Of a DNA stretch of 64,000 nt, positions 9,882 through 13,945 are shown piece by piece. The notes beneath the pieces were generated by a model. It did no database searches. It saw nothing but the letters and a program-made list of their open reading frames with translations, and was not told the DNA's origin. Numbering within the stretch: position 1 is the first letter of the stretch; every line of letters starts with the position of its first letter. The stretch spans positions 1,488,001 through 1,552,000 of the forward strand of contig BPGK01000001.1 of assembly GCA_026002995.1 (NCBI GenBank). The letters are read 5' to 3'. Source of the stretch: Gaiellaceae bacterium. GTDB taxonomy: Bacteria > Actinomycetota > Thermoleophilia > Gaiellales > Gaiellaceae. The position numbers and the translations under genes were made by a program.

Positions 9882-9941
9882 GCCTCGTGTCTAGGGGCCG
9901 ACGAGCGAATCACCGATGCGGGTGGCGTCGGTGGGGGAGGC

Positions 9942-9947
9942 TACGCT
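9942..9947 (+). promoter_or_regulatory. Probable -10 of the sulfotransferase/acyltransferase pair
   Basis: TACGCT ending 10 nt before ATG 9958. It supports 9958 over the upstream in-frame ATG at 9916 and implies a leader of only a few nucleotides. Confidence 0.4.
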
Positions 9948-9957
9948 TCTCGCCGCG

Positions 9958-10953
9958 ATGCCCCTCGTCCCGCGCCAGGATCCCGAGTTCACGCCGACGT
10001 TCGCGAAGGACCCCGCCGACGAGGAGCTCCTCGGCATCCTCAACCAGGCGCTCGCGCAGGCGGAGGACGACGCGCTGCTCGACCTGCCCGAGACGTACCC
10101 GACCCTCCATGTCGTCGGCGTGCCGCGGTCGGGGACGACGCTCCTCTACCAGGTCGTGGCCGCGGGGCTCGAGGTCGGCTACGTGAACAACCTCGTCGCC
10201 GCCTTCTGGCGTGCTCCCGTGCTCGGGCTCCGGTTGTCGCGGAAGCTCGGTCTCCATCGCTTCGAGTCGACCTTCGGGTCGCGGTTCGGCCGCACCGAGG
10301 GCGTGGGGGAGCCGCACGAGTTCGGCTACTTCTGGAACCACCACCTCCGCTACCCGGGCCTGTACGCGCTGCCGGCCTCGCACGAGGAGGAGATCGACTG
10401 GGCGCGCCTGCGCGCCGAGATCGTGAACATGGCCCACTGGAACCGCGGGCCGATGGCCTTCAAGCCCATGCTGCTCGTCTGGCATCTCGTCCGCATGGCG
10501 CGCGAGATGCCCCGCTCCTGCTTCGTCTGGATCCGTCGCGATCCGCGCGCCACCGCGCTCTCGCTCCTCGAGATGCGCCGCTCGCTCTTCGGCTCCCTCG
10601 AGGCGTGGGCGTCGCTGCGGCCGTACGGAGCGGACTGGCTCGCCGGCGAGCCACCCTGGCGCCAGGTCGCGGGGCAGGTCGTCGCGCTCGAGCGCACGCT
10701 GCGAGCCGCAGCGGACGTCCTCGGCCCGGAGACGGTTCTCGAGCTCGGCTACGAGGAGCTCTGCTCGGATCCCCGTGGAGCGCTCGAGCGCGTTGCTAGC
10801 CTGCTCGCCGGAAAGGGCTTCGAGCCCGCGCTGCGCGAGCTCCCGGTCGCGAGCTTCGAGCCGCGCCGGCGCGACCCGCTCGCAGAGGAGTTCGGCGCGC
10901 TCGTGGACGAGGCGTTGGAGGAGTTCCTCGCGGCCTCGACGGTGGGGCCGTGA
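9958..10953 (+). CDS. Sulfotransferase family protein
   Basis: A 331-residue PAPS-dependent sulfotransferase-like protein. The 5'-phosphosulfate loop is GVPRSGTTLLYQV near residue 48, and a second PAPS-binding segment resembles CFVWIRRDPRATALSLLEM. The acceptor is unknown; family members sulfate carbohydrates, lipids or other small molecules. Start ATG 9958 is chosen for its TACGCT hexamer; an ATG at 9916 would add 14 residues. The stop overlaps the GTG of the next gene by 4 bp, tying it to a lipoyl-domain acyltransferase and suggesting that both modify one surface glycan or lipid (inference). Confidence 0.8.
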   Translation: MPLVPRQDPEFTPTFAKDPADEELLGILNQALAQAEDDALLDLPETYPTLHVVGVPRSGTTLLYQVVAAGLEVGYVNNLVAAFWRAPVLGLRLSRKLGLHRFESTFGSRFGRTEGVGEPHEFGYFWNHHLRYPGLYALPASHEEEIDWARLRAEIVNMAHWNRGPMAFKPMLLVWHLVRMAREMPRSCFVWIRRDPRATALSLLEMRRSLFGSLEAWASLRPYGADWLAGEPPWRQVAGQVVALERTLRAAADVLGPETVLELGYEELCSDPRGALERVASLLAGKGFEPALRELPVASFEPRRRDPLAEEFGALVDEALEEFLAASTVGP

Positions 10954-12065
10954 GCGCAACCCCGATCGCGCGGGTCGAGATCCCGCTCGTCAACCCGAAC
11001 GAGCCCGAGGTGCAGGTCATCGAGGTCGCGGTCGAGCCCTTCACCGAGGTCGCGCCCGGGGATCTTCTGTGCGTGGTCGAGACGAGCAAGGCGACGGCCG
11101 ACGTGGAGGCGGAGGTCGGCGGCTGGATCGGCCCGGTGCACGTCGTCGCGGGCGAGCGGGCGAGCGCCGGCGACCTCGTCTGCGAGATCTTCGCCGAGCG
11201 CCCGGACCCGGCGCAGGCGGAAGCCGCGCCGGTCGCTCCCGAGCGCCCGGCCGGACTTCGGCTCACGCGCAAGGCCGAGCGGCTCGCGCTCGAGGCCGGG
11301 CTCGACCTCTCGACCCTCCCGACGGGCCGGTTCCTAACAGAAGGCGACATCGAGGCGATCCTCGGGCGCGGCCGAACCGCCGGCGAGATCCCCTCCGCGA
11401 TCCGGGAGCGCGCGAGCGACAGGGCCGCAGTCGTCTTCGGCGCCGGTGGGCTCGCCAAGTCGCTCGTCGAGCTCATGCGCGCTCGCGGCGACATCGATCC
11501 CATCTGCGTCCTCAACGACCGGCCGGAGAGCGTCTCCGACGTCCTCGGAGTGCCCGTGCTCGGCGGGCGCGAGTATCTCGAGCCCCTGCGCGAGCTCGGC
11601 GTGCGCTACGCCGTGAACGCCGTCGGGGCCGTGCGCCGGATCGAGGATCGCATCGGCATCTTCGAGCTCCTCGCCGCCGCCGGGTTCGAGCAGCCCGCGC
11701 TCGTCGACCCAGCCGCCTTCGTCGCGCCGTCCGCCACGCTCGCGGAGGGGGCGCAGGTCTTCGCCGGCGCAGCGGTCTGCTCGGCGGCCTCGATCGGGCG
11801 AGGAGCGATCGTGAACACGAACGCGGTCGTCTCCCACGACTGCGTCATCGGGGACTTCGCGCACATCGCTCCGGGCGCGCTCCTGGCGGGCGAGGTGTCC
11901 GTCGGACGAGGAACGCTCATCGGCATGGGCGCGACTGCGGTCGTCTACCTCACGATCGGCGCGCGCGTCATCGTCGGAAACGGCGCGGTGCTGAACGAGG
12001 ACGTGCCCGACGGGACGATCGTCCACGCCGGCGGCGTCTGGCCGCGGCCCGAGCACCACCGCTGA
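10950..12065 (+). CDS. Lipoyl-domain / E3-binding-domain / PglD-NeuD-type acyltransferase fusion
   Basis: A 371-residue three-part protein. Residues 1-85 are a biotinyl/lipoyl-type hammerhead domain with candidate modified Lys47 in VVETSKATAD. Residues about 100-140 resemble the peripheral-subunit (E3/E1)-binding domain of 2-oxoacid dehydrogenase E2 (LRLTRKAERLALEAGLDL to FLTEGDIEAIL). Residues about 155-240 are a PglD-N nucleotide-sugar-binding fold (VVFGAGGLAKSL). The rest is a hexapeptide left-handed beta-helix with the PglD-type catalytic His in VVSHDCVIGDF (His296). Thus the catalytic core of an E2 is replaced by a sugar O/N-acyltransferase. It is coupled by GTGA to the sulfotransferase. 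Substrate and the form of the arm (lipoyl or biotinyl) are unknown. Confidence 0.85.
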   Translation: MSATPIARVEIPLVNPNEPEVQVIEVAVEPFTEVAPGDLLCVVETSKATADVEAEVGGWIGPVHVVAGERASAGDLVCEIFAERPDPAQAEAAPVAPERPAGLRLTRKAERLALEAGLDLSTLPTGRFLTEGDIEAILGRGRTAGEIPSAIRERASDRAAVVFGAGGLAKSLVELMRARGDIDPICVLNDRPESVSDVLGVPVLGGREYLEPLRELGVRYAVNAVGAVRRIEDRIGIFELLAAAGFEQPALVDPAAFVAPSATLAEGAQVFAGAAVCSAASIGRGAIVNTNAVVSHDCVIGDFAHIAPGALLAGEVSVGRGTLIGMGATAVVYLTIGARVIVGNGAVLNEDVPDGTIVHAGGVWPRPEHHR

Positions 12066-12727: not shown

Positions 12728-13666
12728 CTAGAACGTGGCAGAGCGCACGCCGGTGAGAATCACGACGAGCACCGCCGAGGCGAGCACGAGGCGGTACACG
12801 ACGAAGATCCCGTACGTGTGACGTCGCACGTACCCGAGGAGCCAGTCGATCGCGAGCAACCCGGCGCCGAGCGCCGCGAGCGTCCCCACGAGGAACGGGC
12901 CTTGCCAGCCGCTCGGGAGGTCTCCGAGGAGCACGTCCCCCACTCCCTTGAGGACGACGGCGCCGAGCACGGTCGGAACGAGCAGCAGGAACGAGAAGCG
13001 CGCAGCGCTGTCGCGGTCGAGGCCGAGGAGCCGCCCCGCCGTGATCGTGATCCCCGAGCGCGAGACGCCGGGCGCGAGCGCGAGGGCCTGAGCGAGCCCC
13101 ATCGCGACCGCGTGCCCCAGCCCGAGATCCCCCATCGCGCGCCGCTGCGGGAAGCGGTCGGCCCACCAGAGCAGCAGCGCCCCCGCGGCGAGGAGGACGA
13201 GGATCTGCCACGGCTCGCCGAGGTTGTCCGCGATCGCGTCTTCGCCGAGAAGGCCGACGATTCCGGCCGGGATCGTGGCGACGAAGACGAACCAGGCGAT
13301 GCGCTCGTCGGGCGTCTCGACCCGGCGGCGGCCGAGCGTGCGAAGCCACGCCCGGAGGAGCCGCACGATGTCCGTCCAGAAGTAGGCGCCGACGGCGATG
13401 AGCGTCCCGAGGTGGAGAGAGACGTCGAACGTCTGGTGGAAGCGGTCGTTCTCCTCGAGGTACGTCCAGTCGGCCGCCCAGGGCACGAGGATGAGGTGCC
13501 CGGAGGAGGAGATCGGCAGGAGCTCCGTCGCTCCCTGGACGACGCCGAGAACGAGCGCCTGCGCGTTCGTGAGCTTCGCCGGATCGTCCCCGATGCCGAG
13601 GAGCGTGACGAGGGCGGCGAGGACGAGGGCGGCTCCCGCGACGCCGTAGACGAGGGAGCGACGCAC
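12728..13666 (-). CDS. uppP: Undecaprenyl-diphosphatase
   Basis: Integral membrane phosphatase recycling undecaprenyl pyrophosphate for cell-wall synthesis; overproduction of the family gives bacitracin resistance. It has 312 residues from GTG 13666. The signature is LGVVQGATELLPISSSGHL near residue 35, and the second catalytic motif is PGVSRSGITITAGR near 190; about eight hydrophobic segments follow the family pattern. Start chosen because TAGGAT lies 7 nt upstream, giving a leaderless message and an N-terminus beginning with a membrane helix. Confidence 0.95.
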   Translation of the reverse strand: MRRSLVYGVAGAALVLAALVTLLGIGDDPAKLTNAQALVLGVVQGATELLPISSSGHLILVPWAADWTYLEENDRFHQTFDVSLHLGTLIAVGAYFWTDIVRLLRAWLRTLGRRRVETPDERIAWFVFVATIPAGIVGLLGEDAIADNLGEPWQILVLLAAGALLLWWADRFPQRRAMGDLGLGHAVAMGLAQALALAPGVSRSGITITAGRLLGLDRDSAARFSFLLLVPTVLGAVVLKGVGDVLLGDLPSGWQGPFLVGTLAALGAGLLAIDWLLGYVRRHTYGIFVVYRLVLASAVLVVILTGVRSATF

Positions 13667-13673
13667 AGACGGG

Positions 13674-13679
13674 ATCCTA
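13674..13679 (-). promoter_or_regulatory. Probable -10 of leaderless uppP
   Basis: TAGGAT on the minus strand, 7 nt before GTG 13666. It argues against a long structured 5' leader for uppP. Confidence 0.45.
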
Positions 13680-13945
13680 GCCGCCCCCGCGACGGTCGGG
13701 GCAGACGACGAACTTCGCGCAAATTGCGGCAATTCGGTGAACGAGGACCTTGACCCGCTCGGCCGTGTCCCATAGGTTCCCTCCTGCACCGAGCACGGAG
13801 CGCAAGTAGGTCGAAGCCCAGCTCGAAGGCTCTACGCGGAAGCGGACGGTCGGCGGGCTGTGTGGACGAAAGCGCCACCGGCTCGGTGAACTTTTTTGGT
13901 CCGATCCGTGGCCCGAAATGGAACGCGCCTGCAACCCGGGCACGA
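13680..13945. other. Non-coding gap between uppP and a small membrane-protein gene
   Basis: I see no convincing coding frame. The stretch has some self-complementarity on either strand (for example GCTCGG near 13790 with CCGAGC near 13758, minus-strand reading) and ends in a plus-strand hairpin followed by a T-run (13876-13897). A plus-strand small RNA is possible; no known riboswitch consensus was recognised. Confidence 0.3.
13876..13897 (+). terminator. Candidate intrinsic terminator
   Basis: CACCG-GCT-CGGTG stem followed after AAC by six T. It points in the plus direction, but no plus-strand gene precedes it, since uppP is on the minus strand. It would end a non-coding plus-strand transcript from 13.7-13.9 kb or read-through. 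The stem is short. Confidence 0.45.

Follow-up and report, generated by a model that had tools for sequence, protein, structure and literature searches.

The gene pair described here raises the question of where a sugar acyltransferase that carries the swinging arm of a 2-oxo acid dehydrogenase complex obtains its acyl group. To our knowledge, acyl-CoA or acyl-ACP is the accepted donor in bacterial sugar acylation. The window, the whole stretch of DNA analysed, comprises 64,000 nucleotides from a Gaiellaceae bacterium (contig BPGK01000001.1, positions 1,488,001 to 1,552,000), and all positions below refer to it unless another contig or locus is named.

Organization of the gene pair

The pair consists of two overlapping genes on the plus strand, and the flanking genes on both sides run the opposite way. 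The upstream neighbour, named by reading of its translation, is presumably a sigma-70-type factor. Downstream lies an undecaprenyl-diphosphatase-like gene (12728-13789, minus strand; named by reading) with the motif LPISSSGHL, which is possibly a link to lipid-carrier glycan export, or plain neighbourhood. Genes were called with a simple script of our own, and named genes were verified by homology. The features of the pair are as follows.

9916..10953, plus strand: PAPS-type sulfotransferase (Sulfotransfer_3, PF13469, E=3.7e-16, 60.5 against a cut-off of 27 bits; P-loop GVPRSGTTLL)
10950..10953, plus strand: 4-bp GTGA overlap, the GTG start of the fusion lying inside the sulfotransferase end
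10950..12065, plus strand: lipoyl/peripheral-subunit-binding-like/NeuD-PglD acyltransferase fusion, 371 aa (domain scans, AlphaFold)
10968..11195, plus strand: lipoyl (swinging-arm) domain, about residues 7-82 (PF00364 at residues 20-80, E=5.6e-9; Foldseek to 3crk)
11088..11090, plus strand: Lys47, predicted lipoylation site in ETSKA, no MKM biotin motif; invariant in alignments A1 and A3
11259..11369, plus strand: peripheral-subunit-binding (E1/E3-binding)-like domain, about residues 104-140 (HMM-HMM; helices at 107-115 and 131-137)
11424..12029, plus strand: NeuD/PglD/PerB-type left-handed β-helix acyltransferase, about residues 159-360 (TIGR03570; PerB 4eaa)
11835..11837, plus strand: His296 in SHDCVIG, the catalytic-base position of NeuD/PglD; invariant in 33 armed and unarmed NeuDs
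11979..11981, plus strand: Asn344, N in 5 armed and A/M/T/S/G in 28 unarmed NeuDs of alignment A4

Both reading frames, Lys47 (in VVETSKATAD), His296 and the overlap, all named in the initial annotation, can be read directly in the sequence. The sulfotransferase frame has an ATG at 9916 and an internal ATG at 9958; the latter, from which the gene had been read originally, may be the true start.

The pairing with a sulfotransferase recurs in relatives. G203, which belongs to a different family of the class, has the two-gene overlap at 52% identity with an identical 4-bp GTGA (L143, 14221-14224). Orthologues of the sulfotransferase adjoin the fusion gene in G014 (59%, L109), G203, G474, G549, G539 and G563. 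An APS kinase is encoded in the window genome (E=4.9e-61), and the co-encoded sulfotransferase suggests that the product is sulfated. Two further observations concern this linkage. G534 and G554 (L158, L159) have a second, different sulfotransferase-like gene (VGMPRSGTKMLREMLS) between E1β and the lipoyl-NeuD gene. In G007, of the same genus, 27 residues at a contig end (L111:3408-3488, contig C56) match the C-terminal residues of the fusion with 96% identity, and the pair probably exists there too.

The lipoyl arm and the binding-like domain

The N-terminal part of the fusion matches the L2 lipoyl domain of pyruvate dehydrogenase (3crk) with a TM score (target) of 0.80 in Foldseek. The armed proteins listed, of NeuD and WcaF type, carry an E[ST][ST]K motif, and Lys47, like His296, is unchanged in all full-length homologues (alignments A1 and A3). 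From this motif and the lipoyl/octanoyl transferase that the window genome encodes, Lys47 is likely to be lipoylated. A biotin carrier was excluded by motif, the arms reading ETSKA, ESTKA or ETTKA in place of MKM. More broadly, the arm might bear the acceptor or some other group (biotin, a sulfur carrier), or be an unmodified scaffold: it scores on a combined biotin/lipoyl model, and sulfotransferase and sulfatase genes nearby may hint at chemistry involving sulfur. The missing biotin motif speaks against such cargo, and the E1 linkage described below, with the binding-like domain, points instead to a reductive-acylation cycle, so that we regard this explanation as very improbable.

The middle domain had been described as E3/E1-binding-like. 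HMM-HMM comparison with peripheral-subunit-binding domains of E2 proteins gave a probability of 97% (E=7e-11), the ten references being eight sequences from loci of this analysis plus those of E. coli and B. stearothermophilus; 60 column-shuffled controls reached at most 4.8%. The Pfam scan gave no match of this domain to E3_binding. The assignment required profile-profile comparison. In the AlphaFold model (33 sequences, mean pLDDT 89.6) residues 107-137 form a helix, a short helix and a second helix.

Despite these E2-like parts the protein is not an E2 proper, since the catalytic 2-oxoacid_dh core (the CAT-type CoA acyltransferase) is absent from the Pfam scan and a NeuD domain is found instead. 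A chance fusion or frameshift was likewise excluded because neither Lys47 nor His296 varies and G203 has the two-gene overlap as well; the full-length architecture is retained in two phyla.

The NeuD-type acyltransferase domain

Residues 161-358 match TIGR03570 with 167.5 bits against a cut-off of 160.8, covering positions 3-196 of 202 of the profile. The C-terminal half superimposes on PerB (4eaa) with a TM score (target) of 0.91, an r.m.s.d. of 1.1 and 38% identity over 201 columns. NeuD, PglD and PerB enzymes acylate amino groups of nucleotide sugars. Members of TIGR03570 use acetyl-CoA as donor, and PerB binds CoA; the groove that binds CoA in these relatives persists in the fold of the fusion, and both the family donor and the groove count against the arm as donor.

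The armed proteins differ from unarmed NeuDs near the C-terminus. Besides Asn344, the five armed proteins in alignment A4 have Trp364-Pro365 where unarmed NeuDs mostly read PA[RK]; in most armed proteins AG-x-x-WP stands in place of that motif. Further armed proteins from the class likewise carry Asn, and nearly all of them have the WP end; the armed protein of G052 has Ser at the Asn344 position and no WP. Asn344 and the WP C-terminus fit a changed site for a thioester arm, which is suggestive only.

The protein could also be an ordinary acyl-CoA-dependent NeuD, whose lipoyl and binding domains merely dock it to an E1/E2 complex and channel locally made acyl-CoA to the sugar. Such a role would suit a C-terminal domain whose score exceeds the NeuD cut-off and whose fold matches that of a CoA-binding enzyme, and the window genome encodes several complete E1-E2 sets. 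It fits less well with the modifiable Lys retained in every member, with a C-terminus that departs from unarmed NeuDs at otherwise well-kept positions, and with the E1 neighbourhoods inspected, where no separate E2 core lies beside the armed acyltransferase. On balance this alternative seems unlikely.

Linkage to E1 genes in related genomes

A pattern-limited scan across 84,980 species genomes gave four homologues of full length (42% identity), all of them from MAGs of the Anaerolineales. There, E1α and E1β are followed directly by the fusion gene and then by a DegT aminotransferase (Pfam-checked); the contig starts inside E1β in L010 and inside E1α in L009. In G052, from the window's order and another actinobacterial family, DegT, E1α, E1β and the fusion lie in a row with their ends touching or overlapping. 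In G203 the E1α-E1β genes are convergent with the sulfotransferase-fusion pair.

Counts were made within one phylum, in 399 genomes of the window's class. An E1β profile found one ThDP-dependent E1 subfamily in 21 of these and a fusion profile found the fusion in 12, every one among the 21 (hypergeometric 1e-17; 6/6 among the more complete genomes, 1.6e-9); these figures are descriptive, as the genomes are related and phylogeny is uncorrected, so that 12/12 overstates independence. The fusion lies about 2 kb or less from E1 in nine of the twelve (G203, G563, G549, G474, G554, G539, G534, G567 and G637), where it is convergent or divergent with E1α-E1β and mostly adjoins the same sulfotransferase. 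In G518 the fusion is truncated at a contig end, with E1β near the end of a different contig. The two others, the window genome and G014, have fusion and E1 apart, and the E1 sits with another (WcaF-type) arm protein. Overall, the neighbours of the E1 subfamily are lipoyl-armed acyltransferases in 20 of the 21 genomes.

A dedicated E1 was looked for beside the window pair and not found. The initial suggestion that an E1-made acyl group is handed to a sugar draws strong if indirect backing from the E1α-E1β linkage and co-occurrence in relatives, and none from adjacency in the window. The pair might be an orphan relic that lost its E1 from the locus and with it the ancestral function, for E1 is unlinked both here and in G014. 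This is a poor prospect, however: the reading frames are intact with all motifs, G014 keeps the same arrangement, the C-terminus is near-identical in G007 (at the contig end), and an E1 is kept elsewhere in the window genome.

A second armed acyltransferase in the window genome

The only E1β of the subfamily in the window genome lies at 2.08 Mb, 586 kb from the pair, in the following operon.

Contig C1 of the window genome (G000), about 2083.06-2087.74 kb (L133:8064-12738), minus strand: sulfatase-family gene, E1α, E1β, 522-aa armed acyltransferase

E1α and E1β together occupy about 2084.6-2086.6 kb. The 522-aa protein joins a lipoyl arm (ETTKATVEV) and a binding-like domain of the same kind to a WcaF-like β-helix acyltransferase, and it is not orthologous to the fusion. 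As far as contigs show, this architecture accompanies the same E1 in 11 genomes, the window's and ten more, and the four-gene operon recurs within the genus, in at least five more genomes. A well-conserved phosphodiesterase-like gene (VPRKVMLIGLDCAEPSLVLERWRDELPTIS; L133:17739-19136) recurs a few kb from the E1/WcaF-type operon in L134, L135 and L136.

In G637 armed proteins of the NeuD and WcaF types are both found beside one E1. In the E1 tree, subfamily members with NeuD-type and LbH-type partners are intermixed, and six further E1s encoded in the window genome fall outside them. Given the intermixing and the arrangement in G637, the window protein could plausibly work with the unlinked 2.08-Mb E1 in trans.

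Nature of the acyl group

The E1 subfamily has in common the signatures PYGGAFK in E1β and YExLN beside the ThDP motif in E1α, and a few members deviate at the last residues of PYGGAFK. Both signatures are absent from the six further E1s compared from the window genome, and PDH-type E1s do not share them. The signatures are also found in E1s beside E2-plus-ACP genes (G393, G090) and in NRPS and other natural-product loci, among them a Streptomyces plasmid and renieramycin RenH. Several arms of the E2-plus-ACP modules read ETSKA as well. In loci L144 (G393), L145 (G090), L146 and L149, E1s of this subfamily adjoin E2-like lipoyl proteins together with ACP or polyketide/peptide synthetase genes; E1α and E1β are fused in G090. 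In the E1 tree the subfamily groups with the E1s of NRPS-linked E2-ACP modules, in a tree that lacks QncN/QncL and has weakly supported deeper nodes.

Among published modules of this layout, QncN/QncL/QncM load a carrier protein with a ketose-phosphate-derived glycolyl unit, and SclQ1-4 are assigned the same role by homology (PMC6335953; Peng et al. 2012 cited in PMC5384830). The link of the E1 subfamily to NRPS modules with the QncN/QncL/SclQ layout makes glycolyl a reasonable first guess for the acyl group, though a speculative one. If the arm is indeed the donor, the chance that the E1 is instead of the ordinary kind, acting on pyruvate or a branched-chain 2-oxo acid and delivering acetyl or a branched acyl group, falls just short of even. 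The closest solved relatives of the E1 are pyruvate and 2-oxoisovalerate E1s, and 2-oxo acids are used by pepteridine and other diverted E1/E2 systems (PMC5384830); the tree grouping and the signatures in common with the E2-ACP modules weigh on the side of glycolyl.

Proposed mechanism and acceptor

Taken together, the domain content and gene linkage make the fusion, in our judgement, rather probably a lipoyl-dependent sugar acyltransferase fed by a dedicated E1. In such a scheme the ThDP-dependent E1α2β2 encoded at 2.08 Mb, outside the window, would cleave a 2-oxo acid or ketose phosphate and reductively acylate the lipoyl group on Lys47, with the peripheral-subunit-binding-like domain docking E1 (or E3). 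The arm would then swing round to present its thioester-bound acyl group to the NeuD-type active site. There His296 would activate the acceptor amine (or hydroxyl) of the sugar, and transfer from arm to sugar would be direct, without CoA. Dihydrolipoyl dehydrogenase would re-oxidise the arm, and the sulfotransferase may sulfate the same product or a partner molecule.

The acceptor is most likely a nucleotide-activated amino sugar. The DegT aminotransferases beside the fusion genes of the Anaerolineales and G052 fit an amino-sugar acceptor, and in G203 nucleotide-sugar dehydrogenase-like and UDP-GlcNAc 2-epimerase-like genes, named by reading, are about 10 kb away. No acceptor-sugar pathway genes were found near the window pair, which counts against the proposed mechanism.

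Relation to known systems

The fusion shares the complete Rossmann-like and β-helix domain and the catalytic His with the sugar N/O-acetyltransferases NeuD, PglD, PglB, VioB and PerB (TIGR03570). Those enzymes are armless and use acetyl-CoA, whereas here about 155 residues of lipoyl and binding-like domain stand in front and Asn344 and the WP terminus differ. With the E2 dihydrolipoyl acyltransferases it has in common the lipoyl and peripheral-subunit-binding-like domains and the genetic link to E1α/E1β, but their chloramphenicol-acetyltransferase-like, CoA-acylating core is here a sugar acyltransferase. A further likeness is to QncN/QncL/QncM, SclQ1-4 and NapB/NapD, drawn through modules of the same layout with the characterised sequences outside the comparison: E1 and a lipoyl arm divert an acyl group from CoA there, as they would here. 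The acceptor there is an ACP, reached through an E2 core, and here would be a sugar, reached through NeuD- or WcaF-like domains; the loci read show neither ACP nor E2 core next to armed proteins of the NeuD or LbH type. The known amide-forming route through a carrier protein and C-domain is also proposed to divert a lipoyl-borne acyl group to a biosynthetic acceptor, and a β-helix sugar acyltransferase is present only here.

A non-exhaustive search of open-access papers found none joining lipoyl with NeuD/PglD, in agreement with the earlier statement that no enzyme of this design has been characterised. The flagellin-glycan 'lipoylation' of PMC4875605 concerns fatty-acid genes and is unrelated.

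The chances are about even that these proteins represent a class of CoA-independent, lipoyl-thioester sugar acyltransferases, with a single E1 supplying two or more unrelated armed types (NeuD and WcaF) for transfer of glycolyl or other E1-derived acyl groups onto sulfated glycans or glycolipids. If so, sugar acylation would have a third donor system, a lipoyl arm served by a dedicated E1. Acyl groups could be drawn straight from central 2-oxo acids or ketose phosphates, opening the way to types, such as glycolyl, that are not common as CoA esters. The E1-plus-arm unit also looks like a plug-in: CAT-type E2s together with carrier proteins, NeuD domains and WcaF-like domains all occur as partners of one E1 subfamily.
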